A stretch of 64,000 nucleotides of DNA. Source: Hermatobates lingyangjiaoensis (lineage: Eukaryota; Arthropoda; Insecta; Hemiptera; Hermatobatidae). The translations under genes and the position numbers were made by a program. The stretch lies in contig JAPFBL010000240.1 of the NCBI GenBank assembly GCA_026182355.1, positions 310,001-374,000 on the forward strand, written 5' to 3'. How positions within the stretch are numbered: the first letter of the stretch is position 1; each line of letters starts with the position of its first letter. The notes beneath the pieces are model-generated. The model was not told where the DNA came from. It worked only from the letters and a program-made list of their open reading frames with translations, and searched no databases. Of the stretch, positions 5,736 through 62,335 are shown piece after piece.

Positions 5736-6445
5736 AATCAGCAATTGTGTGGTATTTACTCATTCTGAGGTAAAATGGATAAACAAACAAAAGTCTACAC
5801 ACAAACGAAGTTTTATTCAACAACAACAATGCGTTTCGAACACTTTGTGTGTATAATCAGGAAGACACTATAATACAAATTATATCTAATCAGTTACAAA
5901 GTTAGAGTGAAATAATACAATTGAATTAAGAGAATTAAAGACATTAACAAGGATGTGGTGCTGAAGGGTTGGATCAACTGGTGCATCCAGTGGACCATAT
6001 AGTGTCTTCCTGATGACGAACACAAAAGTGTTCGAAACGAGTTGTTGTTGTTGAATGAAACTTTATTTGTGTGGAGACTTTTGTTTGTTTATCCATTTTA
6101 CCTCAGAATAAATAATACTACTGGGATAAATGGATAAAGCAAGTCTCCACATAAAGAAGAAGCCTTTTTATTCTACGCTTTTCTAAAACGTTCGTGTTCA
6201 TCGTCAGGTAAACTTGCAGTGGAAGGAGTGGAGGACCGATATTAGTTCACAGAACATGTGAACGTTAGACTGTTCATTCATCCAATTCTTCCATTGAAAA
6301 TTTATCTGATGATGAACACTCTAGTGTTCAAAATGCGTAGAATACAAAGGCTTCCTCTTTGTGGGGAGAATTTGTTAAACACTTTATCCCAGTATAAGTG
6401 AATACCACATAATTACGGATTGTACAACTATGAGATAAATAATAA
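5736..6445. repeat. Family E hairpin repeat cluster (four motif copies)
   Basis: Alternating inverted and direct copies. Hairpin cores lie at 5832-5862 (minus), 6009-6040 (plus, CTGATGACGAACAC...GTGTTCGAAAC), 6177-6209 (minus) and 6306-6340 (plus). Each is followed, in its own strand, by TTGAATAAAACTTCATTTGTGTGGAGAC and TATCCATTTTACCTCAG (two conserved blocks), ending near GAGTAAATACCACACAATT. The cluster therefore contains two foldbacks side by side, using slightly different subfamilies. It is probably PLE-derived. Confidence 0.85.
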
Positions 6446-6654
6446 TATTTAATTAATAAAAATAACTAAAAAAAGAAATAAAAGAAAACTAAATATAAAT
6501 ATTAAAACACAAATCTTGATATTATAAAACATTGAAAAAAAATTAACACCAAGTGTAATAATTAGTAAAATAATTAGCTCATAATTAATTAAACTAGTAA
6601 TAAATTTAATTATTGATGACATAATGATATAAACATTAGTAGTTTGAACTCTAT

Positions 6655-6885
6655 GTTTATATATATGAACTAAATTCACAGAAAGAGCACATATAAAAGA
6701 GATGACAAAAACTCACTTCTATATTTCGACTGCTGCGTCATCACGTAGAAAGATGTGAGTCTCTCCGAAGACAAGTGACGGCATCTTTCGAAGCGACTTA
6801 GATATTTCTATTTGATGACGAGGCATTACAAATATAGCGGGAAGTTTTTGCAAACTCTTTTCTGTGAATTTAGTTTATTTAGTAC
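6655..6885. repeat. Foldback repeat with GAAATATAG-type hairpin
   Basis: The left edge GAACTAAATTCACAGAAAGAG is inverted at the right edge as CTCTTTTCTGTGAATTTAGTT. Internally, TATATTTCGACTGCTGCGTCATCA (minus) and TTGATGACGAGGCATTACAAATATAG (plus) are the two hairpin cores. The spacer includes CTCCGAAGACAAGTG. It is the same architecture as the other foldbacks but a distinct sequence family. Confidence 0.75.
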
Positions 6886-7599
6886 GTAGAATCGTTTAAA
6901 TTAATGGCATAATATCAAATTTTGCTTTCAAAATCTTTTAAAATTATTTATTTAAACTGCTAATTGAGGATTTATTGTTTTTAAATTTCTCCGTTTATTT
7001 TACTTGCTATTTCTAGTTATTTATTTGTTTAAATTTATTGACCAATACTATAAAAAAATTAAATATATCTGGATTCAAACAATTTTCAAAGTGTTGGCAT
7101 TTTATTTTATTCACTAATATTGTAGTATATTTGATATTTTGCTAGGAAGATTCGCACTGAAAAATTTATGTTTATATTATCTCTATGAAACCGTACTGTT
7201 ATGAATTATTACATTCAAAATGGAAAAGCATGCATTATTATAAAGTATAATAATATTATAGAGTATTCTAATGTAGTGCAATCAGTTATTATGTGGTATT
7301 TACCCTACAATGATTATAGAGTATGCTAAAATAAAGTGAAGTAAGAAAGCGAAATAACATACGCACGCACGCACGCACGCACGCATACATACATACACAC
7401 AGATATTTACGCAGATATAATGAATATTACATTCAAATAAAACACAATAAATTTAAAAGAAATTCTAGAGTAATTATTTAATCTGATTTTAAATTGTATT
7501 AATTTTAATGAAATCTTCAGTATTTAATATTCTAACAAATTAACTGTATGCATTGATAGTTACATATTATTACAATATTAAAATTAGTAGCTTATTTCT
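6886..7599. other. AT-rich unassigned DNA with (ACGC)n microsatellite
   Basis: The only structured feature is (ACGC)n at 7361-7384 grading into ACAT and ACAC repeats. The rest is AT-rich with no recognisable domain. Confidence 0.6.
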
Positions 7600-8030
7600 A
7601 ACTAGCTGATCTACCCGGCGTTGACCGGGCGGTAGATTATGCCCGGTGTTTTGGTTATGGGCGGTAGATTATGCCCCGGTGTTTTGGTTATGGGCGGTAG
7701 ATTATGCCCCGGTGTTTTGGTTATGGGCGGTAGATTATGCCCTGGTGTTTTGGTTATGGGCGGTAGATTATGCCCCGGTGTTTCGGTTATGGGCGGTAGA
7801 TTATGCCCCGGTGTTTTGGTTATGGGCGGTCGATTATGCCCCGGTGTTTTGGTTATGGGCGGTAGATCCCAAAAAAGGACCCTGATCAAAATAAAAAAAA
7901 CTGTAGTCAGTCTCCCGAAAAAAAGTTATGTAAGATCCATATGTTTCTTTGTATCTAAATGTCTCCAGTTTTATTTCTATAGCGGACAGACAGACAAGCT
8001 TTGTATTTTACATATACAGATAAACTACTC
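7600..8030 (+). mobile_element. Dispersed repeat carrying a 33-bp minisatellite
   Basis: The element seems to start at CTAGCTGATCTACCCGGCG and to end at GCGGACAGACAGACAAGC followed by ATATACAGAT. From memory, both resemble the ends of a repeat widespread in invertebrate genomes, but I cannot name the superfamily. Between 7629 and 7868 a 33-bp unit (GGTAGATTATGCCCCGGTGT then TTTGGTTATGGGC) is repeated about seven times. The unit lacks stops in several frames, so open frames on both strands across it are artefacts. Confidence 0.7.
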
Positions 8031-8321
8031 ATTTGGATTTGACCTTTAATAGGTAAACAAACCCGCCAAGTGGTTCCACCAGTGACCAGTAGTTACCAAG
8101 GACGTTTGACTTTTATAAATAAAAATAAAATTCAGAAAACATTTATTTTTTTTGTATCATTTGTATAATGCAGACTTTTGCTGTTTGCAGTAATCGAATA
8201 GCAAGGCAGTGTGTTTAGCTAGGGAGGGTTATTATTAAAATATAGATGTTTGTTGTATTGAAAAAGAGTATATGTCTCTATTGGGACTACCTCTTTTGGG
8301 TCATATATTATGATACTAATA

Positions 8322-8940
8322 CAGGGTGGCCCAAATAAAAACGGGCCCCGTGTACACTTTATGTGATATCTCCTTTATTTATTCACTTCAAGAGTGAGCT
8401 CCAGATCCTTTACCGTCGCTCATGAGCAAGTTCTGGTTCCAGCAAGACGGAGCAAGTTCTCACAACTCAAACCTGTCCCGAGATTGGCTGAAAGAGAACT
8501 TCGGAGGCTGAGTGATCAGTCTCAAGATTGATTTTGAGTGGGCACCCCATATAATACCCCATATATTCATAGCCCGGATCTAAGCCCTCCAGATTTTTTT
8601 CTTGGGGGCTATCTTAAGGACGGAGTCTATGCAGGGAACCCAGAATCATCACAGAACTCAAGGAAGCCATCAGGGAGGGGATGAGAGCAATTAACAATTC
8701 AGTCTGTAAGAACGTCATGGACAACTTCGTGTTGTGCCTCAAGTAATGCACGGAGCTAAATAGAGGCCATCTAGAACACATGCTGTAGAACGAAGAAAAA
8801 AAGGCCAAAGACCCTAGTGTTTTGATGTGATGTTTTGAATATAATAAACTAGTTATGACCAAAGTTTCATTTCATTTGGAAAAACACTAAGAAACGGGGG
8901 TTAATTAGAGTTGGAGTTCGGTTTTTTTCTTGGGTCCCTG
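8322..8940 (+). mobile_element. Deleted mariner-like (IS630/Tc1 superfamily) element
   Basis: The left end begins CAGGGTGGCCCAAATAAAAA. The reverse complement of the right end begins CAGGGACCCAAGAAAAAAAC, giving imperfect TIRs. TA dinucleotides at 8320-8321 and 8941-8942 are consistent target duplications. Only about 619 bp remain, containing the C-terminal transposase remnant. It is older and more decayed than the element at 3975-4908 and belongs to a different mariner lineage. Confidence 0.85.
8422..8800 (+). pseudogene. Mariner-like transposase C-terminal remnant
   Basis: Translation from the ATG at 8422 gives MSKFWFQQDGASSHNSNLSR then WLKENFGG and a stop. The FQQDGASSH segment matches the second catalytic Asp block of this superfamily. 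Beyond the stop and frameshifts, FEWAPH, a block corresponding to SPDLSPPDFFLWGYLKD (now split by a frameshift) and YAGNPE can be followed, then a Lys/Glu-rich end near 8790. The gene is broken by stops and indels, so no protein is expected. Confidence 0.85.
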
Positions 8941-8942
8941 TA

Positions 8943-9400
8943 TATGAACCCCCGATCTATCGATCCAGAGACGATCACGAGCCAATGGACTCTCTTGGCT
9001 TCTTTACCGAAAGTTACTACATTTAGACATGTCTACGGATATGGGTTAATATTTGTGAAAAGATTATTTTATTTTAATACTTTCATAAGTTGAATAATAC
9101 TAAAATGTAACAATAAATAAAAGAATATATCTAACATGTTGTCGGGTAAAGATATGCTTTCAGTTAATGTCCTATAACGTAGTCAAAAATTTGACATGAA
9201 CATGATACCTGATTAAAAAAAAAGAAGTTTTTCTGACCATGACTAGAGAAAATCCATGTAAGTAACAACAGAAAAGGACAAATGAATCTGTGAACTTAAA
9301 ACAAATGTACGATATAAAAAAACTTGCAATAATATGTCATTGTATTAATATATATTTGCAAATATTCTTCTTCTAGAGCAAAAGTGGGGAACTCATTAAT
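8943..9400. other. AT-rich unassigned DNA
   Basis: No repeat or frame recognised. The stretch starts directly at the TA duplication of the preceding transposon and runs to the next hairpin repeat. Confidence 0.5.
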
Positions 9401-9870
9401 TGTGCAATTCATAATTGGGTGGTTTTTATACATTCTGAGATAAAGTAGTTATACAAAAGTCCCCACATAAATGAAGTCTTATTGTATTATTGTAGTGTCT
9501 TCCTGATGATGAACATAGGGTATTCGAAACGCGTTGTTGTTTAATAAAAAACTTCATTTGTGCGGAGACTTTTATATAACCAATTTACCTCAGAAAAGTA
9601 GGGAAATTAAAGGTAACAAGCGGTCTTTGTCAGAGTCAAAAACTCAACTGAGCCTCAAAAACCCTCAGAGCCGGTCCAGAGTAGAAGACCGACCAGAGTC
9701 TAGAGTTCAACTCATTCATTCATTTGCAAGTTTACCTGACAATGAACACGAAGTTTTCGTGATGCGTTGAATAAAAAAGCTTCCTTTTTATGTGTGGAGA
9801 CTTTGATTTATCAATTTACCCCAGTATGAGTAAATACCATACAATTATGGATTGCACAACTAATGAGTTA
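9401..9870 (+). repeat. Family E hairpin repeats, chimeric with a family A fragment
   Basis: Cores at 9502-9531 (CCTGATGATGAACATAGGG then TATTCGAAACGCG) and 9734-9769 (CTGACAATGAACACGAAG) each precede an AATAAAA.CTTC and GTGGAGACTTT block. The end GAGTAAATACCATACAATTATGG matches the end at 5736-6445. Between them, 9606-9660 carries AACAAGCGGTCTTTGTCAGAGTC from family A, so two families are joined. Confidence 0.8.
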
Positions 9871-9934
9871 GTGCTTTATATTCATAGTTGAAATTTCATC
9901 AATATACGATTAGTTTTTAGCTTTAGGAACGTAA

Positions 9935-10060
9935 AGTAGCTTCGCAGGTACGCTTGGTGTCTCTATCTCTTCTCTCCTGATGACGGTTAAACCGAAAATT
10001 AGAGACTGTAAGTGTGCTTCTCTATTTACTGTGTACCTGTAGTTTACTCTAATATATTAT
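9935..10060 (+). repeat. Family B hairpin repeat, single arm
   Basis: The core TCCTGATGACGGTTAAACCG pairs CGGTT with ACCG and is followed by AAAATTAGAGACTGTAAG. Upstream is CGCTTGGTGTCTCTATCTC. The tail TACCTGTAGTTTACTCTAA is shared with the copy near 36365-36555. Confidence 0.8.
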
Positions 10061-10190: not shown

Positions 10191-10352
10191 AAAGATTTCA
10201 CACAAACACGTGAAATAACAATCAATGATCAAACCACAATAATAAATGGGAAAACAAAACTACTCAGTTAGGTTTTTGACTCTGACGAAAACCGCTTGTT
10301 ACGGTTGAAAGATCTTAGTCTTGTTTTCCCATTTCTTATTGTGGTTTGATCA
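10191..10352. repeat. Foldback repeat family A, copy 2
   Basis: Starts AAAGATTTCACACAAACACG, passes TGATCAAACCACAATA and turns round at ACTACTCAGTTAGG into the complete right arm, GACGAAAACCGCTTGTTACGG to GGTTTGATCA. The left arm is truncated compared with copy 3. (TA)n lies on both sides (10157-10179 and 10354-10374), as if inserted within a TA microsatellite. Confidence 0.9.
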
Positions 10353-10375: not shown

Positions 10376-10495
10376 ACTAGAATTTAAAAAAAGAACACAG
10401 AGAGAGGAAACCACTGAATTCACTACTATATTTCGATGTCCTCGTCTTCAGGAAAAGAAGTGAATCGCTCCAAAGGCTGATAACGACTGATATAT
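10376..10495 (-). repeat. Hairpin repeat, GAAATATAG type
   Basis: On the minus strand, CCTGAAGACGAGGACATCG is followed by AAATATAGTAGTGAATTCAG and a block matching CTCTCTCTGTGTTCTTTTTT. The same AGAATTTAAAAAAGAACAC edge reappears reversed around 40925-40970, indicating another fragment of this family there. Confidence 0.7.
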
Positions 10496-12819: not shown

Positions 12820-13060
12820 AAAGATTTCACATAAACACGTGAAATAACAATCAATGATCAAACCACAATAAGAAAATGGGAAAACAAGACTAAAATCTTT
12901 CAACCGCAACAAGCGGTCCTCGTCAGAGTCAAAAACCCAACTGGTTTTTGTTGGGTTTTTGATCCAACTGTTCAGTTGGGTTTTTGACTCTGACGAAGAC
13001 CGCTTGTTACGGTTGAAAGATCTTAATCTTGTTTTCCCATTTTCTTATTGTAGTTGATCA

Positions 13061-13774: not shown

Positions 13775-14032
13775 CCATATATACTTTTTCGTTGATAATA
13801 CGATCCGAAACGGACAAATATAGTTCAACGTAGAAAAGAAACATAGAGAAATCAATAGCACACACTTATAGTCTCTAATTTTCGGTTTGAACCGTCTTCA
13901 GGAGAGATAAGAGAGGGAGTGCGCTTGGTTTCCCTCTCTTATCTCTTGTGAAGAGGGTTCAAACCGAAAATTAGAGACTGTAAGCGTGTGTTTTGATTTC
14001 TCTATGTTTCTTTTTCTACATTACACTATATA
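13775..14032. repeat. Foldback repeat family B
   Basis: The left arm starts CTTTTTCGTTGATAATACG and includes AGTCTCTAATTTTCGGTTTG. The right arm returns with TTCAAACCGAAAATTAGAG and ends at TCTATGTTTCTTTTTC. The turn is near 13922 (GTGCGCTTGGTTTCC). The hairpin core on either strand is the CTGAAGACGGTTCAAACCG type, followed by AAAATTAGAGAC. Confidence 0.88.
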
Positions 14033-14033: not shown

Positions 14034-14238
14034 AAAAAGATTTCACATAAACACGTGAAATAACAATCAATGATCAAACCACAATAAGAAATGGGAAAAC
14101 AAGACTAAGATCTTTCAACCGTAACAAGCGGTCTTCGTCAGAGTCAGTTGGGTTTTTGACTCTGACGAAGACCGCTTGTTACGGTTGAAAGATCTTAGTC
14201 TTGTTTTCCCATTTCTTATTGTGGTTTGATAATTGATT
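14034..14238. repeat. Foldback repeat family A, copy 5 (near-perfect palindrome)
   Basis: Left arm from AAAGATTTCACATAAACACG through CAAGCGGTCTTCGTCAGAGTC; the mirror arm runs to GTGGTTTGAT. The two arms match almost exactly over about 85 bp with a spacer of only around 10 bp, so transcripts would form a long hairpin. (TA)n follows at 14245-14293. Confidence 0.94.
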
Positions 14239-23087: not shown

Positions 23088-23238
23088 CATAATGGAAGTT
23101 TACCTGATGATGAACAGCAAGTGCTTGAAACGCGTAGTTCATGAACAAACAAAAAACTTCTATTCTCTGGAAACTTTGAACTATCTTTTCTACCAGCATT
23201 AGTAAATACCACATAACAGATTGCACTATTTAACGAGA
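23088..23238 (+). repeat. Family E hairpin repeat, single arm
   Basis: The core ACCTGATGATGAACAGCAAG then TGCTTGAAACGCGTAG lies at 23101-23137, followed by AAAAAACTTCTATTCTCTGG, AACTATCTTTTCTACCAGC and TTAGTAAATACCACATAAC. The order is identical to copies at 5736-6445 and 9401-9870. Confidence 0.82.
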
Positions 23239-28499: not shown

Positions 28500-28735
28500 A
28501 TTTATATTGTTTTATATATTTTGGGAGCTGACCTTCTTTTAAACAGATTTTGTTTAATGCACAGGTTATTTTTAATCCTGTACGTGTCCTTAATACTTTT
28601 ACTAGTTTTCTTACACAAGTTTTCCACTTCTCTGGTAAAATATAAATCAATTCATCAAATGATTTATTTTTAAGATTGACGAAATTCCCGACGTTTCAGT
28701 TGGAATTGAACTAACCATTTTGAAAAAGAAACCAT
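28500..28735 (-). repeat. 3' region of a PLE-like repeat with GAAACGTCGG hairpin
   Basis: On the minus strand, AGTT and AACT pair immediately before GAAACGTCGGGAATTTCG (28688-28712). It lies downstream, in the same orientation, of the GIY-YIG frame at 29207-29479. The adjoining part near 28515-28560 (GGGAGCTGACCTTC, then CAGATTTTGTTT) resembles 28019-28060 (GGGAGCAGGCCTTC). This is the best local evidence that the hairpin motif is the 3' end of PLE-type elements. Confidence 0.65.
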
Positions 28736-29034: not shown

Positions 29035-29720
29035 AGTCGTCTGATCGTTAAGGTTTAAGGTTTGGTTTCTTCTCCTTTATACCTAACGATTCCATCATAT
29101 ATAGCCTCCTGTAGTCTTTTTCATGATATAATGCTTGAATATTGTCCTCTAGTGTTATTCGGTCTAGTTTGAACTTATGTATGTATAGTTATTGGGTTAG
29201 AGGTGGTTAGTATGGATGTTCTTGCGGTACTCCGGCAGCCAAGTGCATCGTAAGTCGGCGTGAAAGTGTAGAACCAATATAGCTTGCCTTAAGGAGCACA
29301 CACTCTCCTATGGTACAGTTGTAACTGTACACTATATTGGTTTTCTGTAGTTTCATTCTTTGTTGCAAGTTGTTCCTAATTATAAGATATACAGTGGTCG
29401 AATAGCTAGAATAAACGCTAAAGTTTACCTTGCCTGCAGAGTTAACACATGCTGTATTTGATTTAATTATCGCCTTCAAAATTCATTCGTCCTTCTTAAA
29501 TTCATTAGCAAATTAGTTCCTGTAATATACAGTTTGAATTCTTCTTTCTTCAGGCAGCTGATTATCCTGAACGTTTCCTTGATATTAAATTGATAATGTA
29601 TTTCTTTAAAAATATTGTCGAACTGTTTGTTGCTGTAACCATTGTTAACCAATAATTATTTTATCTTTTTACTGCTTAGTGAAAGAAAGAACAGTCAAAT
29701 GCCGTCTTGAAAGCTCTATT
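29035..29720 (-). pseudogene. Penelope-like element, RT-to-GIY-YIG remnant
   Basis: The minus-strand frame at 29207-29479 reads VYLIIRNNLQQRMKLQKTNI, VYSYNCTIGECV, SYIGSTLSRRLTMHLAAGVP. This is the zinc-site and GIY-YIG entry of PLE endonucleases (Y.C....C......YIG.T...L.RRL..H...G), which nick DNA for target-primed reverse transcription. Upstream in sense (29480-29640), NNGYSNKQFDNIFKEIHYQF leads in from the RT end. Downstream (29060-29140), IQALYHEKDYRRLYI matches the endonuclease C-terminal part. Stops at several points show decay. Confidence 0.85.
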
Positions 29721-30245: not shown

Positions 30246-30490
30246 AATAAAATAAATTCAAAACGAAGGAAACACACAGAAAGACACAGACATAACTCAC
30301 ATCGATATTTCGACCATCGTCGTCATCAGGAGGTGTGAAGAGCGAAGAGTCCCGCAAGAAGTCACCGCCCTGCCTTCTTGCGGGACTCTTCGCTCTTCAC
30401 ACCTCCTGATGACGACGATGGTTGAAATATCGATGTGAGTTATGTCTGTGTCTTTCTGTGTGTTTCCTTCGTTTTGAATTTATTTTATTT
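30215..30490. repeat. Foldback repeat, GAAATATCGATG type, in (TA)n
   Basis: After (TA)n (30215-30243) the left arm starts AAATTCAAAACGAAGGAAAC and the right arm ends GTTTCCTTCGTTTTGAATTT. The arms are about 110 bp and nearly perfect, with a centre of GCGGGACTCTTCGCTC/GAGCGAAGAGTCCCGC. The core CTCCTGATGACGACGATGG then TTGAAATATCGATGTGAG is at 30401-30441. The relative at 13377-13511 has only one arm. Confidence 0.93.
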
Positions 30491-30513
30491 AAAAAAGTCT
30501 TCTGGACCGTTTC

Positions 30514-30514: not shown

Positions 30515-30552
<38 letters not shown>

Positions 30553-30572
30553 TATATATATATATATATATA
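30515..30572. repeat. (TA)n microsatellite
   Basis: Interrupted TA array of nearly 60 bp. Confidence 0.95.
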
Positions 30573-30829
30573 AAATGAGAAGAATGATTAATGCAAAAGA
30601 AGAAAAAGCTCTACTGCTACTCCTCCTTGGAGACTATGGTTTAAGCTATTAATACGGTAACATAAAAACCAACAAACCTGGCAACCCGCTTCGACCGATC
30701 ATTAGCCGAGATTCCTACCCCTGCATACCAACTGGAACAGTTCCTTAGTTCCTTAACAACTTGCTTTCTCCATTTGTCCCTAATTGGTTTCTCAGTGCAT
30801 TAGTTTTGCATAAATTGTTTCCACTCAAC
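30573..30829. other. GC-balanced island, unassigned
   Basis: 30620-30790 (GGCAACCCGCTTCGACCGAT, CTACCCCTGCATACCAACTG) is non-repetitive in the window and without an obvious frame. It is a conserved-element candidate, or 5' PLE sequence. Confidence 0.3.
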
Positions 30830-31700
30830 GCAAAATCTTTATTTACCAACATCTGAATGGATCAAACAGTAGATTAAATTCTTAAAATAAGCTTATCCAG
30901 ATGATAGTCTGATACGTTGTATTTGCAAATCTGTACCAAAAAATGCATTTCATTTTTTTTTTTTTTAAAAAAGTCGCTTTTTCCTTCTCTTGATGAATAA
31001 ATGTAGCAGCAAACTTATGGAATACCCATGGCATCACCCTTGAGGGCAATTTATAAACTCATTCATATCATTGAGAACAAAATTTTCTTAAACACATGAT
31101 AGTCTGTCACCTATGTCAATTATACCCTTCACTTGTTTTTTCTTTTTTTTGATTAAAGAGAACTAGAAGATACTAGACCTTGACTTCAAGGTTGAACGTA
31201 GGAACAAAAGCAAAATACCATTTCTTGATTTACTTATTAGCAGTAGAGGATTATTTTATAACCAGAATATGAACAAATATATATTAATTCAGAGAGTATT
31301 CTGACAGATATAAAGAGACTATATTTTCAATCTATGAAAAAAAAATCCCCTTACGGATTGTACCTTTTTCTTTTTAGAAGCTATCGTTTCAACTACATTA
31401 CATTAATAAATCAACACTTTGAAGAGATATAAAGAGAACACAAATATTTTTTATTCAAATAAAATTGCTTGATAATCATTATTGTTGAAAAACTTGCACT
31501 AGCTGACAAGTGAGTACCAAAATTTTAACAAAAAACAGATAAAGGAAAAGAAGTAATATATCTTCAGTATAGCACCAACCATTTGGTTTCCAATCAGTTT
31601 GAACTACCTTGGGCCTTCCCAAGGTGAACTTAAATTAAGAAATAAAATTTTATTAAGATGGATAAAGCCAATCGGGAATGCATATTAAACAATCGACAGG
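30830..31700 (+). pseudogene. Penelope-like reverse transcriptase remnant
   Basis: Plus-strand pieces in order: SLYLPTSEWIKQ (RT motif 2-like region), MASPLRAIYKLIHIIENKIF (equivalent of the GxxMGSPL...LANIFM motif B), SVTYVNYT where the catalytic YVDDT stood, and LDFKVERRNKSKIPFLDLLI (equivalent of FT.E.E.N..LPFLDLLI). Loss of the DD pair and the frameshifts make it dead. The assignment is by motif order; sequence between the motifs is poorly conserved. Confidence 0.6.
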
Positions 31701-37734: not shown

Positions 37735-38015
37735 GGTGTGCTCTCTAATCGGGATTCGGTCAATTTTCTAGGATAAAAAATCAAACTCTCAGTGCCAACG
37801 TTTCGGTTTTATTTAAAACCTTTTTCATAGGCAGAAGTAAGAATTGTTTAACTCAGAAAATGAAATTTACATTATTTAAAGAAACAACAATGTTAACCGG
37901 ACAAAAACTTTCGACTAGACTGTCTAGTTTTTGTTTGGTTGTTTCATTTAGTTCTCTGATGATGTGGTGACGAAAGGCCTTAGAGAATTTTAATTAATAT
38001 ATAATGTTTATTGTG
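37735..38015. repeat. Family I (minus) and family C (plus) hairpin arms
   Basis: CAGTGCCAACGTTTCGGTTTT...ACCTTTTTCATAGGCAG (37790-37835) is a minus-strand family I core (GGTTTTAAATAAAACCGAAACGTTGG in sense, shown elsewhere in parts). The plus core TCTCTGATGATGTGGTGACG followed by AAAGGCCTTAGAG (37953-37986) is family C. Two families are adjacent. Confidence 0.75.
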
Positions 38016-40749: not shown

Positions 40750-40915
40750 ATATATATATATATATAAAGATTTCACATAAACACGTGAAATAACAATCAA
40801 TGATCAAACCACAATAAGAAAATGGGAAAACAAGACTAAGATCTTTCAACCGTAACAAGCGGTCTTCGTCAGAGTCAAAAACCCAACTTTGATCATTGAT
40901 ATATATATATATATA
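40750..40915. repeat. Family A copy inside (TA)n
   Basis: TA repeats, then AAAGATTTCACATAAACACG to CGTCAGAGTCAAAAACCCAAC, then a junction to TTTGATCATTGA and TA repeats again. Only the outermost part of the right arm remains. The element is cleanly bracketed by the microsatellite. Confidence 0.9.
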
Positions 40916-43828: not shown

Positions 43829-44069
43829 CACTTTTTCTTCTTCTCGGAATTTGGTCAGGGTTAATATTTGGAATCACCTTTTCACCAACGTTTCGTCTGA
43901 ATTTTAAGAGATCCTCAGGGCTATAAATCAAGGCTAGCTTCTAATACCGAGTTTCTAATAGCCTTGATTTATAGCCCTGAGGATGTCTTAAAATTCAGAC
44001 GAAACGTTGGTAAAAAGGTGATTCCAAATATTAACCTTGACCAAATTCCGAGAAGAAGAAAAAGTGTTT
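43829..44069. repeat. Foldback repeat family D, near-perfect
   Basis: Left arm ACTTTTTCTTCTTCTCGGAA...CACCAACGTTTCGTCTG; right arm CAGACGAAACGTTGGTAAAA...TTCCGAGAAGAAGAAAAAGT. The plus core is GCCCTGAGGATGTCTTAAAA then TTCAGACGAAACGTTGG (GTCT pairs with AGAC). The arms are about 95 bp with very few mismatches. Confidence 0.94.
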
Positions 44070-44399: not shown

Positions 44400-44500
44400 T
44401 GTTATAATCGATATTTCGAACCACAGTTCGTCCTCAGGAGAAGATTCGAAAAGAAGGTGAAGAGGTGAGAAGTTTGCAGGTGAACGCTTCTCTGTATAGA
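44400..44500 (-). repeat. Hairpin repeat, GAAATATCG type, single arm
   Basis: In minus sense the core is TCTCCTGAGGACGAACTGTGG then TTCGAAATATCGATTATAAC, with CGAAC pairing GTTCG (44402-44440). The remainder leads into a GAGA-rich region. Confidence 0.75.
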
Positions 44501-45545: not shown

Positions 45546-45588
45546 TATATATATATAGAAAATTGTCACAATAACACGTGATATAAAT

Positions 45589-45951
45589 ATTCAGGTAACT
45601 CACCACAAATTAAAGAAGATAGTCGCTCTAAGGCCTTTCGCTCTCACGTCGTCAGAGAGCAAGTGAATACAAGTTGTAAGCAGGTTATGAATTTTGATTT
45701 AAAGAAGGAGTGAGATTGGCATCATTGACAGTATTTTTCCCTATAACTGTTGAAATATCAAATTATCAAACAAATCAAGACTATTTCAACAGTTATAGGG
45801 AAAAATACTGTCAATGATGCCAATCTTACTCCTTCTTTAAATCAAAATTCATAACCTGCTTACAACTTGTATTCACTTGCTCTCTGACGACGTGAAAGCG
45901 AAAGGCCTTAGAGCGACTATCTTCTTTAATTTGTGGTGAGTTACCTGAATA
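45589..45951. repeat. Foldback repeat family C, about 168-bp arms
   Basis: The longest hairpin in the window. Arms 45589-45757 and 45783-45951 differ at only a few positions, around a spacer of about 25 nt. The outer ends are TATTCAGGTAACTCACC and GGTGAGTTACCTGAATA. The plus core is CTCTGACGACGTGAAAGCG then AAAGGCCTTAGAGCG. (TA)n lies on both sides. Confidence 0.95.
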
Positions 45952-46035: not shown

Positions 46036-46716
46036 TTCATTAGTTTTTCTAGGTCTTTAAAAAATGTCTACTTTCCTTCAACGTTGAAGAATGAATACTT
46101 GTTAGGGTGAACCAGACATGTTCATCTTGCATCCAATCATATTCCGTGTAAGTACAAAAATGAAGTAAACATATTAATACTTGCCCCGAAGATGACTGGA
46201 GGTCAGTCGAAACATGTCGGATACACCAGTGGTTTCCAAACTTGATGTTACTACGCCTCCCTTAAAAATATTTAATCATTTGGTGCCCCCCTCCCCGCGG
46301 AAGATTTCATAAAATAAAAACACAAACATTTTTGCTCTTATAAAATTTATTTATTTAAACTAATGGAAAAAGATATTTATAATTGTTTCCAATGAGATGG
46401 ATGTGCTTGTCTAATAGCATAAAGTTTATCAAATCTTGGTGTTTGTGACGATATAGCTACTCGTAGCTCTTTTTCTACAACTAAACAAGCTCGATATTTG
46501 GATTTCATTGCAGCCAAGTCAGAAAATCATTTTTTAAATAGAAAACTTTAGTATTAATTTCGAAAATTCTTCACTGTGACTTTTTTCGCGGCTCCCTTTA
46601 GACTAGTCCGCGCCTCCCAGTTTGGAAAACGCTGGGATACACCCTAACAGATATTCTTCAACGTTTCGGTGAAGAAAAGAAGAAATTATTAGAAACCTAC
46701 AAAAACTAATTAAGAA
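46036..46716. repeat. Foldback repeat family J, interrupted by a hAT-like element
   Basis: The left arm TTAGTTTTTCTAGGTC...AACGTTGAAGAATGAATAC...GTTAGGGTG is mirrored by CACCCTAACAGATATTCTTC and ACCTACAAAAACTAA. The core CCCCGAAGATGACTGGAGG then TCAGTCGAAACATGTCGG (GACTG pairs CAGTC) is at 46182-46220. Without the nested insertion at 46227-46634 the foldback would be about 265 bp. Confidence 0.85.
46227..46634. mobile_element. hAT-superfamily non-autonomous element (MITE)
   Basis: Ends CAGTGGTTTCCAAACTTG and, inverted, CAGCGTTTTCCAAACTGG form imperfect TIRs of about 16 bp of the CAGTGGTTC.CAAACT type seen in hAT elements. The 8-bp direct repeats GGATACAC at 46219-46226 and 46635-46642 are the expected hAT target duplication. 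At 408 bp there is no transposase frame. Near both ends, GCGCCTCCC/GGTGCCCCC-type sequence is typical of such elements. Confidence 0.93.
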
Positions 46717-47029: not shown

Positions 47030-47990
47030 GATCATAAATCAGCGATTACAAGAACTATAATATTCTCCTATGTATCAGCTACCTACATAATTACATCAGT
47101 AACTCTTCCCCGCATTATGTTCTCTAATATACTTTGTAATTATAGAGCTAACAATTAGTGACTTCTTAATATCATGAACAATAATCAGTGATTATGAGAA
47201 CAGTAATCTTCTCTCATTATAATAATACTTCATAGTATTAAAATCAGCAGTTAGTGACTTCTTAATATCATGAACAATAATCAGTGATTATGAGAACAGT
47301 AATCTTCTCTCATTATAATAATACTTCATAGTATTAAAATCAGCAATTAGTGACTTCTTAATATCATGAACAATAATCAGTGATTATGAGAACAGTAATC
47401 TTCTCTCATTATAATAATACTTGATAGTATTAGAATCAGCAATTAGTGACTTCTTAATATCATGAACAATAATCAGTGATTATGAGAACAGTAATCTTCT
47501 CTCATTATAATAATACTTGATAGTATTAGAATCAGCAATTAGTGACTTCTTAATATCATGAACAATAATCAGTGATTATGAGAACAGTAATCTTCTCTCA
47601 TTATAATAATACTTGATAGTATTAGAATCAGCAATTAGTGACTTCTTAATATCATGAACAATAATCAGTGATTATGAGAACAGTAATCTTCTCTCATTAT
47701 AATAATACTTGATAGTATTAGAATCAGCAATTAGTGACTTCTTAATATCATGAACAATAATCAGTGATTATGAGAACAGTAATCTTCTCTCATTATAATA
47801 ATACTTGATAGTATTAGAATCAGCAATTAGTAACTTCTTAATTTTAATGAAAAATAACCAGTGATTAAAAGAACAATAATCTTCTCCAATTTTACAGCTG
47901 TCTACATAAATACAACTGCAATTCGTCCCCACATTATTTTCTCTCACATAATTCACACTATTGGAGATAAAAATTAGTGAATTTTCCGAA
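47030..47990. repeat. 96-bp tandem array with longer diverged end units
   Basis: GACTTCTTAATATCATGAAC recurs at 47160, 47256, 47352, 47448, 47544, 47640 and 47736, an exact 96-bp period, with a diverged unit at 47832. Both flanks (47037-47155 and about 47858-47975) contain an extra block of around 55 bp (ACCTACATAAT...CCCCGCATTATGTTCTCT / TCTACATAAAT...CCCCACATTATTTTCTCT) that the inner units lack. The inner unit therefore looks like an amplified deletion derivative of a longer ancestral unit of about 150 bp. Confidence 0.95.
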
Positions 47991-49394: not shown

Positions 49395-50985
49395 TTTATG
49401 CAGAGTCAGCATTGGTTAGCTTCCTTGGAGTTGCTAACAAAGATACAAGACAATCTTGGGAATAATCCAGATTTTGAAAGTGGAAGATCGAATAATTTGA
49501 TTGAAGAATGCATTAAACTTGCAGTTAGTAAGTACTTTCCAAGTAAGTTACTTGGATTTTACTTTCTTAGAGTCACCAAGAAAGGTACAAGATTAATTTG
49601 GGAATAATCTAGATTTTAATAGTAGAAGACTGAATAATTGAATTGAAGAATACATAAACGTTGTAGTTAGTAAGTACTTTCCAAGAAGCTACTTGGATTA
49701 CTTTCTTGAAGTTAGTAAAGAAGGTACTGGATAGTCTTGGGAATAATCTAGATTTTGAAAGTAGAAGATTGAATAATTCAATTGAAGAATGCATTAAACT
49801 TTGAGTTGTAAAGTACTTTCTAAGTAAGTTCCTTGGAGTACTTTCTTAGAGTTACTAAGAAAGATACAAGATTAGTATGGGAATAATCTAGATTTTGAAA
49901 ATGGAAGATCGAATAATTGAATTGAAGAATACATAAACCTTGTAGTTAGTAACTACTTTCCAAGTAAGTTACTTGAAGTACTTTCTTAGAGTTACTAAGA
50001 AAGGTACAAGGCTAGTACGGGAATAATCTAGATTTTGAAAGTGGAATATCGAATAATTTAATTGAAGAATGCATTAAACTTGGAGTTATAAAGTACTTTC
50101 TAAGTAAGTTACTTTAGTACTTTCTTAGAGTAACTAAGAAAGATACAAGATTAGTATGGGAATAATCTAGATTTTGAAAATGGAAGATCAAATAATTGAA
50201 TTGAAGAATACATAAACCTTGTAGTTAGTAACTACTTTCCAAGTAAGTTACTTGGAGTACTTTCTTAGAGTTACTAAGAAAGGTACAAGGCTAGTACGGG
50301 AATAATCTAGATTTTGAAAGTGGAATATCGAATAATTTAATTGAAGAATGCATTAAACTTGGAGTTATAAAGTACTTTCTAAGTAAGTTACTTTAGTACT
50401 TTCTTAGAGTAACTAAGAAAGATACAAGATTAGTATGGGAATAATCTAGATTTTGAAAATGGAAGATCGAATAATTGAATTGAAGAATACATAAACCTTG
50501 TAGTTAGTAACTACTTTCCAAGTAAGTTACTTGGAGTACTTTCTTAGAGTTACTAAGAAAGGTACAAGGCTAGTACGGGAATATTCTAGATTTTGAAAGT
50601 GGAATATCGAATAATTTAATTGAAGAATGCATTAAACTTGGAGTTATAAAGTACTTTCCAAGTAAGTTACATGGATTACTTTCTTAGAGTTACCAAGAAA
50701 GGTATAACATTAGTTTGGGAATAATCTAGATTTTGAAAGTGGTATATTGGTACCGATGCGTGACGTAGTATCGTGTGAGCCCGCCTCCGCGAGGTCCACC
50801 TCGGACGCTCCAAGGTTCTGTTCAATCCCTGGAGTGACTAAAGGACAGTAAGTTAAGCATCGGCCTGGTTTAATTTCGTGTCATGGTTAAGAAGCCCTAG
50901 ATAAACTAAAATCAAAACAAATTTTATAAGTGGAAGAGTAGGTAATTGAATTGAAGATTGCATAAAACTTTCCATACTCTGTAAC
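49395..50985. repeat. 140-bp tandem array with 279-bp higher-order period
   Basis: The block AATCTAGATTTTGAAAGTGG recurs with spacings of 139-142 bp at 49470, 49612, 49751, 49891, 50031, 50170, 50310, 50449, 50589 and 50729. From 49891, alternating units (ATTAGTATGGG versus GCTAGTACGGG variants) give a dimeric period of about 279 bp, so recent expansion was by dimers. A partial unit (TGGAAGAGTAGGTAATTG) at 50928-50980 continues after an inserted SINE-like element. Confidence 0.95.
50748..50922 (+). mobile_element. Second SINE type, inserted in the 140-bp array
   Basis: GGTACCGATGCGTGACGTAG and TCGTGTGAGCCCGCCTCCG resemble an A-box head, and TTCTGTTCAATCCCTGGAG a B box. The body ends GTTTAATTTCGTGTCATGG and AGAAGCCCTAGATAAACT. 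GC-rich against its AT-rich host array, it separates the last full unit from a partial one. tRNA-derived SINE is my best reading, but the family is not recognised. Confidence 0.6.
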
Positions 50986-55576: not shown

Positions 55577-55897
55577 GGACAGCAAGCTTCGGGTGATATG
55601 TAATTAGTTACAATTCAGAAATTACATATATATGGATTAATTTACCATAATGAAACAAATTTTGGAAACAATGATCTAAGGCCTTTCATCAACACATCGT
55701 CAGAGAGCAAGTGAACTAAAAAATAATAAATACTTGTTAACCTGGTTGATTGAAGTTTCTAGAATTGTTGGTAACCCTGAATGTGTTTAATGATGAAGAA
55801 GTCTTCATCTATTTAATTATCCCGCTAATCAAAACTTCATCTAGGACTTTATAGAGTCCTAGGCTATTATTCAATTGCTATTGAACAATGTATATAC

Positions 55898-55941: not shown

Positions 55942-56130
55942 CACTCAAAATTCGAAAAAAACGATCCTAACTGGTCGCAAAACAGCTCAAAAACGAAGAA
56001 AAGCAACACACAGAGAAAGAGACACACTTACAAACTCAAATTTTCAGATGCTCCGTCTTCAGGAGAAAATTTGAGTTTATAAGTGTGTCTCTTTCTCTGT
56101 GTGTTGCTTATTTTCGTTTTTGAGCTGTTA
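55942..56130. repeat. Foldback repeat with CCGTCTTCAGGAG core
   Basis: The left arm ACAGCTCAAAAACGAAG...GACACACTTACAAACTC is mirrored by GAGTTTATAAGTGTGTC and TTCGTTTTTGAGCTGT. The centre is TTTTCAGATGCTCCGTCTTC. (TA)n on both sides. Confidence 0.88.

Positions 56131-60353: not shown

Positions 60354-60385
<32 letters not shown>
60354..60385. repeat. (CA)n microsatellite
   Basis: Sixteen CA units. Confidence 0.97.
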
Positions 60386-60387
<2 letters not shown>

Positions 60388-60534
60388 ATCTCTCACTATC
60401 TTTACAAAAACGACTTCTTATCTGAAAAGAATTTCGGTTTTAAACTGGAATCGAATACACTTCATTGACTCAATCGAGCAATTACTTTGGATATCTGAGA
60501 ATACGACAATATTCCTTACCTCCAAGAAATTTTT

Positions 60535-61310
60535 AGAGACGGCAATACAACTGGACCCCAGGTTGGTAGATCTTTTGTGGCGTATGAAAAAAATACTCTC
60601 AGAAAAAAACTATAGATTAACTGAAGAATGCTCAAACAACAGATTGAATTTTTTAGAGCCATTAAAAGCCATCAATTGAGTACAACAATATGTAAATATA
60701 AATACAACCATTAGAGAAAATACAGTAAAATATCGACAGATATTTTAAGCAACAATATAAATCACAACCCATTAAATTAAAAACAGAATAAGTACTGAGA
60801 ACCTTAATGAACAGTGTCAAAATCACGTTTACATGGGTAAAGGCACATACAGGGTATCACAGGAAATTAAATAAACTACCAACTAGCCAAAGGATAAACT
60901 ACCAACGGATACAAACAATCTAGAGTACAACTTTCATTAACAAAAATTAGCAAAAAAGGGAATACAGAGATTATGAAAGGCACAATGACAGAATACAATG
61001 AAAGCAAAGCAAACAAACTACTTTTTCCCAACAATAAGCAAACGGTAACTATCAACAAATCTTCATATAACTTGGAAATTATCCAGTTCTACACAGAGCA
61101 AGGAAAATTAATTGATCTTCATCTTCATCAAATTGGAGGTAGGATTTTGAATATTACAACTATGTAGAAAACCACCCTCATAAACATCTTATACACATGA
61201 CACAGAAAAGAAAGGTCTCAACTATGTAAAAAACTCGTCACGAAAGAATGGCCTCCAACAAAGCAAGACCTCGTAGATGAAGAAATAGTCCAACTATTTG
61301 AGACTTTTGT
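60535..61310 (+). pseudogene. LINE RNase H domain remnant
   Basis: Plus-strand pieces: QIEFFRAIKSHQ near 60636 (equivalent of the QAELLAI segment around the second acidic residue) and VKITFTWVKAHTGYHRKLNK near 60820 (equivalent of V.F.WVKAHvGi.GNE.AD). Lys/Asn-rich C-terminal debris extends to 61300, including HERMASNKARPRR. RNase H domains like this occur in I/R1-group LINEs. Many stops. Confidence 0.65.
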
Positions 61311-61747
61311 GAAGTGTGTGTATAAAGAGTATAGATTTGAATATAATCTGCATAAAAAAATAGCTTAAAATGATGAGAAAGATACGTAAAATTGAAAATA
61401 ATTAGCATTATTAAAATGTATATGTAAATATTAATGTAGTGAGAATAGTACGAGTATTCGTACAAAAATAGTACATATATATATGATTCCATCATCCAGT
61501 AAAGAAAACTGAATATATCAAATGAAAACAATTATGTAAATATTTTGTAAAACAAAATTGTAAAATATAATTTTAGAAACATAAACTATACTAAAATGAC
61601 AATACGTAATATACTGTAACGGACGTAATATACTGTATCTGCTTTTAACAGAGCATACTGGTGAAATAAATTCCTTTATGGAAGAGATGTAAGCAATCTG
61701 TATATCTTTTATACTGCAGAAAACAAACGGGCATACATACGTATATA
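61311..61747. other. AT-rich unassigned DNA
   Basis: ACGTAATATACTGTA occurs twice at 61604-61637. Otherwise nothing recognised. Confidence 0.5.
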
Positions 61748-61824
61748 TGATCAAACCACAATATGAAAATGGGAAAAACAAGACTAAGATCTTTCAACCG
61801 TAACAAGCGGTCTTCGTCAGAGTC

Positions 61825-61856
<32 letters not shown>
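61748..61856. repeat. Family A single arm plus (TA)n
   Basis: TGATCAAACCACAATATG to CGTCTTCGTCAGAGTCA-type end at 61825, directly followed by (TA)n to 61856. Confidence 0.9.
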
Positions 61857-62076
61857 AAGATTTCACATAAACACGTGAAATAACAATCAATAATCAAACC
61901 ACAATAAGAAATGAGAAAACAAGACTAAGATCTTTCAACCGTAACAAGCGGTCTTCGTCAGAGTCAAAAACCCAACTGCAGTTGGGTGTCAGTTGGGTTT
62001 TTGACTCAGACGAAGACCGCTTGTTACGGTTGAAAGATCTTAGTCTTGTTTTCCCATTTCTTATTGTGGTTTGATC
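61857..62076. repeat. Foldback repeat family A, near-perfect palindrome
   Basis: Left arm AAGATTTCACATAAACACG ... CAGAGTCAAAAACCCAACTG; right arm CAGTTGGGTTTTTGACTC ... ATTGTGGTTTGATCA. The arms are about 95 bp with a minimal spacer, and (TA)n lies on both sides (61825-61856 and 62077-62094). Confidence 0.95.

Positions 62077-62112
<36 letters not shown>
62077..62112. repeat. (TA)n-(TG)n microsatellite
   Basis: TA to 62094, then TG to 62112. Confidence 0.95.
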
Positions 62113-62204
62113 ATTGAGACTGTTGGTCTCAAAAAAAAATTTGTGTTAGTTCTCTATGTGAGTTGTACTCGTAGATTGTTTTGGTAAATGTATATAGTTC
62201 TTAC

Positions 62205-62335
62205 TCTAATTTTAGCCCTGAAGATGATGTACAAATACATCGAAACGTCGGCCTAGGAAGGAGTTTATTTTCTTTTATTTGACCTAGCCCTCAATAACAA
62301 AATATAGAATATATATATATATATATATATATACA
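62205..62335 (+). repeat. Hairpin repeat family F with GAAACGTCGG, then (TA)n
   Basis: CCCTGAAGATGATGTACAAA then TACATCGAAACGTCGGCC (GATGTA pairs TACATC) lies at 62214-62255. ACCTAGCCCTCAATAACAAA and (TA)n at 62311-62333 follow. It has the clearest form of the hairpin core in the window. Confidence 0.85.

Follow-up and report, generated by a model that had tools for sequence, protein, structure and literature searches.

Probable minimal type I hammerhead ribozymes with loop-less, palindromic helix III in Penelope-like elements of Hermatobates lingyangjiaoensis

The in vivo function of the hammerhead ribozymes of Penelope-like elements (PLEs) is still termed a mystery in a review of the field (PMC7761336). 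In Poseidon_Ac (PAc), from Anolis, the reading frame begins at the edge of stem II, with C3 and G8 before the start codon, and the cut falls 26 bp into the frame; two nearby reverse-transcription start sites yield a 30–40 bp tail, targets are AT-rich and both strands are extended (PMC11167929). The same account reports that cleavage required protein, that no RNA-seq ends mapped to the cut site and that hammerhead mutations had no effect on in vitro insertion, for which the first 172 nt of the frame are the RNA needed, so that a role in transposition is only putative (PMC11167929).

Here we describe a hammerhead-like motif that recurs every few kilobases in a 64-kb stretch of the Hermatobates lingyangjiaoensis genome (the window). 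Its families differ in their stems, their palindromes and even a covarying catalytic pair, and amount to a natural mutational scan of what selection keeps: the 3–8 pair, H17, the palindrome and an extra nucleotide. We consider it very probable, judging from sequence, that the motif sites are minimal type I hammerhead ribozymes of several PLE families, a kind already known that is very common here and seems suited to pairwise action.

The motif and its conserved parts

Both strands of the window together hold 39 matches to CTGANGA-N{8,30}-GAAA, against a mean of 3.31 and a maximum of 8 in 100 dinucleotide shuffles, indicating that the recurrence noted in the original prediction is real. Eight of its nine examples contain an exact CTGANGA core 1–5 nt from the start given (at 6010, 9977, 23104, 30406, 37956, 43977, 45884 and 62218; 23104 has one helix II mismatch); the exception, 46182, reads CCGAAGA at 46186 (U4C) and keeps the claimed GACTG/CAGTC stem and GAAA. 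Fitting the whole motif with a helix II of at least 2 bp gave 23 window sites (shuffle mean 0.1, maximum 1, n=60), 17 of which had a helix I of at least 3 bp (0 in shuffles). The type I core C3U4G5A6N7G8A9 plus G12A13A14, or a compensated 3–8 pair, is present, with U4C at one window site. Across 264 kb the pattern gave 103 matches in 21 clusters, of which we read about 8 as ribozyme-bearing and the remainder as chance matches; several families thus exist, but the predicted 'at least ten' was generous and 'unrelated' too strong. The sites in the window are as follows (CM, covariance model).

62215..62252, + strand: minimal type I hammerhead; helix I GCC/GGC, CTGAAGA, extra T, helix II GATGTA/TACATC, GAA, loop-less helix III ACGT, H17 C; CM E=2.5e-4, a training row of the model
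43974..44011, + strand: minimal hammerhead; helix I GCC/GGT, CTGAGGA, T, helix II GTCT/AGAC, helix III ACGT, H17 T
43873-43926, - strand: inverted partner of 43974..44011, helix II mutated
9973..10005, + strand: minimal hammerhead; helix I TCTC/GAGA, CTGATGA, C, helix II GGT/ACC, helix III AATT, H17 A
13872..13905, - strand: family of 9977; helix III AATT, H17 A
56035..56065, - strand: minimal hammerhead in the middle of a long palindrome; helix I CTC/GAG, helix II GGA/TCT, helix III AATT, H17 T
30302..30331, - strand: left arm of an inverted pair; helix I TC/GA, helix II GAC/GTC, helix III ATAT, H17 C; short 3' end
30404..30433, + strand: right arm, partner of 30302..30331; helix II GAC/GTT, helix III ATAT, H17 C; long 3' end
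44408..44439, - strand: minimal hammerhead; helix I TC/GA, helix II GAAC/GTTC, helix III ATAT, H17 C; top CM match of the window, E=1.9e-6, a training row
10426..10452, - strand: weak member; helix I 1 bp, helix II GA/TC, helix III ATAT, H17 A; CM E=2.6e-5
45623..45662, - strand: left arm of an inverted pair; helix I TTGCTCT/AGAGCGA, helix II GT/GC, helix III AGGCCT, H17 T; long 3' end
45877..45916, + strand: right arm, partner and family of 45623..45662; short 3' end
37952..37985, + strand: AGGCCT family; helix I TTCT/AGAG, helix II GT/AC, H17 T
55675..55706, - strand: AGGCCT family; helix I TCT/AGA, helix II GT/AT, H17 T
14103..14145, - strand: AGATCT family, the commonest, left arm of an inverted pair; helix I GACT/AGTC, helix II GACCG/CGGTT, helix III AGATCT, H17 T; long 3' end
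14158..14200, + strand: AGATCT family, right arm, partner of 14103..14145; short 3' end
3729..3771, - strand: AGATCT family copy
10278-10320 (+), 12888-12930 (-, AGATTT), 12989-13025 (+), 40834-40876 (-), 61782-61824 (-), 61923-61965 (-): further strict AGATCT copies
9502..9536, + strand: GAACAC-type family; helix I 1 bp only, helix II GAA/TTC, helix III ACGCGT, H17 T; CM E=5.1e-4
6002..6052, + strand: GAACAC/GTGTTC copy of the original prediction; helix III mutated (ACGAGT), without a valid triplet
23102..23138, + strand: related family; helix II with one mismatch, helix III ACGCGT, H17 A; CM E=0.12
46178..46223, + strand: relative of the intact PLE's ribozyme; core CCGAAGA (U4C), helix II GACTG/CAGTC, helix III ACATGT, H17 C; CM E=0.017
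37794..37832, - strand: deviant core UAUGAAAA, read as U3-A8 with one inserted A; helix I GCC/GGC, helix II GGTTTT/AAAACC, helix III ACGT, H17 T

The fold of helix II is kept while its letters vary. In an alignment of 30 copies from a single superfamily (29 of the rows distinct; 3 pairs), helix II cells are paired in 88.5% of cases, compared with 67.0% in shuffles, the covariation score is 0.724 (shuffled, 0.315) and 26 cells are changed on both sides (shuffled, 9.1). None of 500 shuffles was as high on any of these three measures, and all six slid registers were lower on all three. The other two of five measures, both-side-changed pairs and further pair types, did not exceed shuffles, and one slid register surpassed helix II in pair types (9 versus 7). 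Covariation is therefore significant in this superfamily, the reverse of what a fold without conservation was predicted to show. The extra nucleotide before helix II, which had been claimed for most copies, proved even more regular: it occurs in 64 of 67 strict sites in 264 kb. Among the first 100 genome matches listed, four helix II pairs form with one extra nucleotide in 81 of 99, and with zero extra nucleotides in 1 of 100. By its title, a 2001 paper by De la Pena and Flores concerns an extra nucleotide in a viroid hammerhead core.

The original prediction had seen no helix III with a cleavage triplet, whereas most sites have both: after GAA comes a self-complementary palindrome of 4–6 nt, which would form helix III without a loop, then H17 and helix I. 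The palindromes include AGATCT, ATAT, AATT, ACGCGT, AGGCCT, ACGT and ACATGT, and the palindromic sites have the A15.1–U16.1 pair of helix III and an NUH triplet. Of 70 sites, 55 carry a palindrome directly after GAA, and so do 27 when only the 41 distinct ones are counted. Of 17 other offsets, 15 give 0–9 of 70; the next offset downstream gives 36 of 70, nested inside the 6-nt palindromes, and one upstream offset gives 23 of 70, as TCGA from stems ending in TC. None of the 67 strict sites has G at H17, where the score used counted against G; among the 27 distinct palindromic sites, taken without selection at this position, one has G. In these 27, the first and second pairs of helix I form 22 and 24 times, against no more than 9 and 18 in any of eight slid registers; the third and fourth, in 15 and 17, show no excess over slid registers (up to 14 and 17). 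In the ACGCGT families helix I is just 1–3 bp; this weakness of helix I slightly lowers our confidence in the ribozyme reading. Several copies have lost the palindrome. In a fresh 40 kb, fetched only after the model had been fixed, all four CTGANGA sites with a one-nucleotide gap had a palindrome and an H17 other than G; the remaining two CTGANGA sites had no palindrome. Without a loop, helix III could not close as a hairpin within one motif, or only as a 1-bp stem with four loop bases, and we infer that the full helix forms only between two copies.

The core itself also covaries. At the 3–8 pair (n=87), C-G occurs 63 times, U-A 13, C-A 0 and U-G 2, and C3-G8 is replaced by U3-A8 in other PLE families of the same genome, in several copies that span three or more stem II families. 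No further U3-A8 ribozyme turned up in the fresh 40 kb (three T-A rows, none with a fitting palindrome); among its other cores, 4 of 23 rows had some palindrome, one being a decayed AGATCT copy. Rfam hammerhead families matched nothing in the whole window at the gathering score or E<=5, nor in two short slices at E<=10, which we take as a probable consequence of the loop-less helix III and the extra nucleotide; with 0 window sites matched, this suggests that the standard models overlook this form.

Element context and insertion ends

PLE remnants and end structures in the window are as follows.

29039..29688, - strand: PLE reverse-transcriptase (RT) remnant; tblastn to PLE proteins in two pieces, E=6e-27 and 2e-25
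30572..31087, + strand: PLE RT remnant; tblastn E=1.5e-19, starting at the (TA)n that bounds the 30406 copy
30521-30572: TA array bounding the 30406 copy
28516..28665, - strand: PLE N-terminal coding piece ending at LPKY near an AT run, an end read as a typical insertion 3' end
490..609, + strand: PLE N-terminal coding piece, FNDICLKEDLL
30497..30507, + strand: 30406 copy, small hairpin GTC/GAC within its long 3' end (tail), just before (TA)n
45566..45581, - strand: 45655 copy, hairpin TCAC/GTGA within its long 3' end
14041..14060, - strand: 14141 copy, hairpin TTTCAC/GTGAAA within its long 3' end (tail)

Elsewhere in the same genome lies an uninterrupted PLE frame of 856 codons, the one intact frame seen. 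Its ATG is inside a ribozyme core, the predicted cut falls 27 nt into the frame, and an identical ribozyme lies 2,635 bp downstream; in some families an ATG at this position soon meets a stop. Scanned frames yielded the RVT_1 and GIY-YIG Pfam domains that together characterise PLEs, although no single scanned frame gave both, as homologs such as P0015 do. Of 142 listed GIY-YIG loci, 20 were fetched and 18 read as PLEs. Among these 18, a ribozyme core lies downstream of the endonuclease domain in 12, only a deviant core in four (L045, L046, L048 and L049) and no core in two (L035 and L037); a scan of the 20 loci for CTGANGA alone gave two, about the chance expectation by our estimate from core density. 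Where surroundings are readable, the ribozyme follows one copy's endonuclease frame and stands at or shortly before the next copy's RT–endonuclease frame. Pseudo-LTRs (pLTRs) occur in direct and inverted arrangement, as in PLEs, and because the ribozyme sits in this repeated terminal region, a head-to-tail array would carry one per unit.

Copies of the AGATCT family end 3' at one of two places roughly 30–37 nt apart, like PLE 'tails'; their hairpin is thus at a fixed distance (one of two) from the end, and not at random positions. An optional 30–40 bp tail on one inverted end and AT-rich targets, both PLE traits, were also found. By our reading, 16 of the 21 nearest inverted pairs clearly have one short and one long end, and one is contrary. 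Inverted pairs with 3' ends outward are common, and 18 of 30 AGATCT copies fall in the nine nearest pairs. Where both are visible, the 3' end lies about 35–160 nt downstream of the predicted cut. The motifs had been predicted to be hammerhead-like 3' recognition structures of PLEs: the elements and the hammerhead-like core hold, but a recognition function is doubtful because copies end well past the cut and hammerhead mutations had no effect on insertion by PAc, the single PLE examined in vitro (PMC11167929).

Cleavage, binding or dimer linkage

The fold would comprise helix I closing on CUGANGA (or UUGANAA), the extra nucleotide, helix II, GAA, helix III and H17, with covariation in support. 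Most likely, two copies of the ribozyme, lying in tandem within a single transcript or on separate transcripts, would pair through their palindromes into a double hammerhead, and both would cleave after H17, resolving multimeric transcripts into units. The element's protein would probably assist, as for Poseidon from Anolis. By analogy with that element, insertion may be a separate step in which the protein nicks AT-rich DNA and reverse transcription starts downstream of the ribozyme, about 35–160 nt past the cut, before or after the small hairpin.

An unlikely alternative, though the strongest, is that the motifs derive from hammerheads but are catalytically dead, their fold conserved for PLE protein binding. 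The Anolis hammerhead cleaves in vitro only with protein and its loss leaves insertion unchanged (PMC11167929), the telomeric Terminon hammerhead is described as a characteristic 3'-terminal fold exposing the adjacent repeat (PMC6431247), some families have lost the triplet and Rfam models find no match. Yet binding alone needs neither an H17 other than G, nor a Watson–Crick 3–8 pair, nor a palindrome in the place of helix III, all of which are kept, and where ends were seen, copies do not end at the predicted cut. That these features and the extra nucleotide are retained argues for catalysis, probably as dimers, rather than for binding alone.

It is more doubtful still that the palindromes serve mainly as RNA dimer linkage, with cleavage secondary: two templates would be held in one dimeric protein complex, both cut target strands would be extended, and inverted pairs would result. 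The loop-less palindromes vary between families and remain self-complementary, outward-facing inverted pairs are common, and the Anolis enzyme, modelled as a dimer, cuts and extends both strands (PMC11167929). Linkage alone, however, does not need the conserved 3–8 pair, GAA and H17, dimerisation is putative, and the Anolis enzyme is active in vitro with hammerhead mutants (PMC11167929). No more probable, in our view, is a combined role in which the palindromes license cleavage in pairs of units only and also join two template RNAs in a dimeric RT complex that extends both target strands at once; if true, it would explain the many inverted-pair insertions with one 'tailed' and one 'tailless' end. 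Finally, chance, or the shared ancestry of one repeat family without conserved structure, is taken as refuted: many copies are recent and near identical, so that raw counts overstate independence, but distinct helices keep pairing with significant covariation and shuffles average 0.1 whole-motif sites. Cleavage by dimers, to which the loop-less palindromes point, remains our preferred reading.

Comparison with known systems

Retrozymes and the newt and axolotl satellite hammerheads are likewise type I, have a weak helix III and act better as dimers, one axolotl family having a palindromic loop; as described, they are small, tandem, non-autonomous repeats with loop–loop tertiary contacts (PMC7229834), whereas here the ribozymes belong to PLE copies. 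The present copies lie dispersed or in inverted arrangement, with RT/endonuclease frames linked to several of the families, unlike small tandem non-coding retrozymes with canonical hammerheads, an identity that we rejected. Perreault et al. (2011) described natural C3-G8 to U3-A8 covariation and, in their Figure S8 legend, dimer-compatible palindromic stem III/loop III (PMC3088659); in the present genome alone, U3-A8 is found in several copies, with three or more PLE stem II families represented. Bdelloid Penelope families have inverted pLTRs with a tail on one of the two, as here, and the main text of that paper contains 'hairpin' and 'secondary structure' 0 times each (PMC3846280).

PAc (PMC11167929) resembles the present elements in a frame that starts at the ribozyme with C3 and G8 ahead of its start codon, in its cut position (27 nt here, 26 bp there), in 3' ends at two places, in AT-rich targets and in the extension of both strands; it differs in host and families, some ATGs here are soon stopped, and the present elements are known from sequence. 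The minimal type I hammerheads of PLEs (Cervera & De la Pena 2014, via PMC6155905, PMC7761336 and PMC7229834) share the element class, the pseudo-LTR location, a reduced helix III and the proposed action as dimers; the comparison follows the descriptions in these citing papers, at the level of words for the extra nucleotide, the loop-less palindromes and the U3-A8 core.

Loop-less helix III and a proposed hammerhead architecture

Within the window, CTGANGA-N8–30-GAAA has 39 matches against 3.3 expected. The exact core is found at eight of the nine sites named in the original prediction; the ninth, 46182, reads CCGAAGA. In hammerhead numbering, we take CTGANGA to be C3–A9 and GAA to be G12–A14. 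Straight after GAA stands a tetramer or hexamer that is its own reverse complement, with A as its first base and T as its last (AGATCT, ATAT, AATT, ACGCGT, AGGCCT, ACATGT, ACGT or AGCT), followed on its 3' side by H17, the nucleotide before the predicted cut, and then by bases complementary to those directly 5' of C3. This palindrome is the helix III that had been reported missing; it was overlooked because it has no loop. For the same reason an ordinary hammerhead that folds as one molecule, with helix III formed as a hairpin, was rejected: the families read have no loop there. A box C/D or k-turn reading was considered but not adopted.

A scan for the whole architecture with a helix II of at least 2 bp returned 23 window sites, whereas 60 shuffles averaged 0.1; also requiring a helix I of at least 3 bp left 17 sites, and none in the shuffles. 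As a control, 51 letter-shuffled core heptamers used as anchors gave 865 sites and 4 parses, one of them with a 3-bp helix I. The window and 200 kb of sampled genome together hold 67 architecture sites; the window accounts for 24 of these, under slightly wider scan rules than those behind the 23. H17 is T in 45, C in 11, A in 11 and G in none of the 67, under a scoring that penalised G. Raw counts are inflated by near-identical copies, and distinct counts are quoted where known.

Selection without regard to helix III or H17 (core, helix II of at least 3 bp and GAA) yielded 74 sites, 70 of which have a gap of one nucleotide before helix II. A Watson–Crick palindrome lies exactly at the helix III position in 55 of these 70 (27 of 41 distinct). 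At 15 of 17 control offsets, 0–9 of the 70 have one; the next downstream offset reaches 36 because it is nested in the 6-nt palindromes, and one upstream offset reaches 23 because stems ending in TC give TCGA with the following GA. Of the 27 distinct sites with a palindrome, 22 and 24 form helix I pairs 1 and 2, against maxima of 9 and 18 over eight slid registers, and pairs 3 and 4 form in 15 and 17, with no excess over slid registers (up to 14 and 17). H17, here unselected, is T in 13, C in 7, A in 6 and G in 1.

A fresh 40 kb, sampled after the model was fixed, contained six sites with CTGANGA, helix II and GAA. The four with a one-nucleotide gap all have the palindrome, with H17 being A, T, T and T; neither of the two with a gap of 0 or 2 has one. 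Among other cores in this sample, some palindrome occurs in 4 of 23 rows, one being a decayed AGATCT copy, and none of three rows with a U3–A8 core pair has a fitting palindrome.

Across the assembly (909.9 Mb, 1,629 contigs), CTGANGA-N8–30-GAAACG has 22,536 + 22,502 matches, against 947 + 1,015 for a backwards-read control. Outside the window, the 200 kb of sampled genome holds 43 strict sites and the fresh 40 kb holds 4, densities that extrapolate, very roughly, to 180,000 sites in the genome.

Covariation in helix II and in the core

The extra nucleotide noted originally before helix II is a single one in 64 of the 67 architecture sites, and the proposed conservation of pairing over letters is borne out. 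In 30 copies of the AATT/ATAT superfamily (29 distinct rows), 88.5% of helix II cells are paired, against 67.0% after shuffling, with a covariation score of 0.724 against 0.315; slid registers fall below the true one in both. Two of five helix II measures on these copies, two-sided-change pairs and further pair types, show no excess over shuffles. Among 21 cluster representatives, chance hits included, pairing is seen in 40 of 63 cells with the one-nucleotide offset, a count reached by 2 of 2,000 shuffles, against 24, 17 and 23 at offsets 0, 2 and 3. Among the first 100 genome matches listed, four base pairs form at gap 1 in 81 of 99 and at gap 0 in 1 of 100, and on this ground a hairpin that joins the core with no gap was rejected; their helices II include GAAC/GTTC, GTCT/AGAC, GACA/TGTC, GATG/CATC, GATA/TATC and GGTC/GACC.

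Helix II pairs were counted on alignment A2. The MAFFT alignment A1, on which covariance model R1 was built, has two AATT rows off by one column. R1 (16 representatives) gives 34 window matches at E < 0.01, training rows counted in, and at least one (27320, 15% GC) is taken as chance. MicroRNA and sRNA matches in the window, the strongest of which fall on long inverted repeats, were likewise taken as chance.

The core 3–8 pair covaries. In 316,535 bases we found 87 full-architecture sites, with C–G in 63, U–A in 13 (one, L020 8307, weak-looking), A–A in 5, U–G in 2, G–G in 2, C–U in 1, A–G in 1 and C–A in none, figures that are not genome frequencies because loci were selected by endonuclease or CTGANGA. 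Eleven of the 13 U–A rows come from loci picked for endonuclease; L001–L008 were picked by CTGANGA, and L013 is a random sample. Stem II of the U–A rows falls into three or more families (GCCAAA, GGTC and GGTCA). Aligned on helix I, the five A–A rows (GCC-UAUGAAAA-N-GGUUUU..., one at window 37828, minus strand) would, in our reading, be U3–A8 with one inserted A. A fold that served binding alone would have no obvious need for 3–8 covariation. The same change from C3–G8 to U3–A8 is seen in natural variants described by Perreault et al. (PMC3088659), who cite in vitro activity.

Penelope-like elements and their ends

On one strand of contig C25 of the same assembly, an endonuclease frame ends and is followed by a ribozyme at 311293, a long frame, a second, identical copy of the ribozyme at 313928, an N-terminal piece and, last, an AT run; to the left of this intact copy lies an inverted one with the same ribozyme (308932, minus strand). 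The stop-to-stop frame is uninterrupted for 861 codons (311284–313866) and matches RVT_1 in Pfam (E=3.5e-12); Pfam matching did not extend to its GIY-YIG part, which was assigned through homologs of the frame's end piece. Its ATG at 311299 (856 codons up to the stop) coincides with A9-U-G10.1, so that the start codon of this family supplies the extra nucleotide as its U, and the predicted cut falls 27 nt 3' of the ATG's A. Other families differ: loci of the L031–L043 type have an ATG at the equivalent place and an early stop, and the ATG of the L026 frame is 122 nt 3' of the core. In the AATT/ATAT superfamily (for example, window 9977 and 30406), a 5' splice-site-like GT[AG]AG[TC] occurs in 22 of 30 copies aligned in A2, 9–14 nt after G12 and about 1–6 nt beyond the predicted cut; in this clade, an intron may precede the start of the frame.

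From 9,198 first-look candidates, 150 of them scored and 142 listed, we hand-picked 20 GIY-YIG loci, which we read as 18 Penelope-like elements (PLEs), one SLX1-like host gene and one UvrC-like piece (L034, C1502:3325–3519), probably on a bacterial contaminant or symbiont contig. A ribozyme core lies downstream of the endonuclease domain in 12 of the 18, with U3–A8 in eleven (L031, L032, L033, L036 and L038–L044) and C3–G8 in L047; the cores of L038 and L042 have a damaged helix I and were located by string search or eye. A scan for CTGANGA alone had made PLE endonuclease loci look devoid of the motif; the U3–A8 core became apparent once the sequences were read. L045, L046, L048 and L049 have only a deviant core, near GCGAACGAAGATGGACAAGATCCGAAAGCGCTCCAACG, that keeps the palindrome AGCGCT and a C at H17 and in which CTGANGA is not legible; their endonuclease family is abundant, with many 30.3-bit matches and frequent inverted neighbours. 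No core was found at the other two, L035 and L037. AGATCT and ATAT ribozymes also have endonuclease remnants upstream (L014, L021, L022 and L027). Named PLE homologs among the matches listed are nearly all crustacean. A receptor-like exon gave no homologs.

Most AGATCT copies reach AT repeats about 70–80 or 105–107 nt after the core start; by our reading, the script's short and long labels are wrong for L014 5249 and window 41111. Of the 24 nearest inverted head-to-head pairs, judged by eye in all families, three cross-element pairs were left out, and 16 of the remaining 21 clearly have a short end on one arm and a long end on the other. One more is probable (L025, whose core sequence is changed), three are unclear (L018, L021 and window 6207/6306) and one is contrary (43918/43977). 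Within 800 bp, all nine AGATCT pairs listed combine short and long arms, a tenth, cross-element pair being left out. The extra piece of the long end contains a small hairpin (TTTCAC/GTGAAA, GTCC/GGAC, TCAC/GTGA or GAAG/CTTC), the last of which sits within the coding motif FNxxCLKEGLLPxYTN. It fits the optional 'tail' on one of the inverted terminal repeats (pLTRs) described by Arkhipova et al. (PMC3846280), which Frangieh et al. (PMC11167929) attribute to two reverse-transcription start sites. Copies end at least about 35 nt beyond the predicted cut, so the ribozyme does not occupy the first-copied end.

GAACAC-family copies at 5736–6430 and 9393–9867 do not end at (AT)n. Nested inverted arms, TAGTTGTGCAATC...TGTGGTATTTACTCAT...CTGAGGTAAA, surround the inverted copies there and are perhaps the true insertion boundary of these families. 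Parts of this flank are found again near 7277, as well as in several of L003–L008. The window also contains the following features.

4034–4745, minus strand: Mariner-type transposase pieces (HTH_48, E=3e-12); a longer frame is present in L009
7627–7867: 33-bp tandem repeat GGGCGGTAGATTATGCCCCGGTGTTTTGGTTAT, 7.3 copies, 96% matches
49420–50742 and 47152–47886: two tandem arrays, with periods of 140/279 and 96 bp

Proposed mechanism and known hammerheads

A 4-nt palindrome allows no hairpin, and a 6-nt one allows at most one A–U pair with a four-base loop. Helix III could simply be built between two ribozyme copies, which tandem units would place on a single transcript. Newt and viroid hammerheads are reported to form helix III between two copies in this way (PMC6155905), and hammerheads with a palindromic stem III are drawn as dimers in the Figure S8 legend of PMC3088659. 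We infer with moderate confidence that the primary role is unit-length processing; our confidence is only moderate because, according to PMC11167929, the Anolis ribozyme requires the element's protein in vitro and its loss has no effect on insertion.

Minimal type I hammerheads in PLEs, suggested dimers and many families per genome are already known; in Acropora, for instance, type I motifs of the minimal or canonical kind exceed 6,000 and belong to 16 families (PMC7229834). In the literature searched, outside which a key PLE-hammerhead paper lies, we did not recognise the extra nucleotide, the palindromes or U3–A8 as described for PLEs. New as data are these families and the site density, together with the near-universal extra nucleotide, loop-less palindromes as the rule and U3–A8 in several PLE families.
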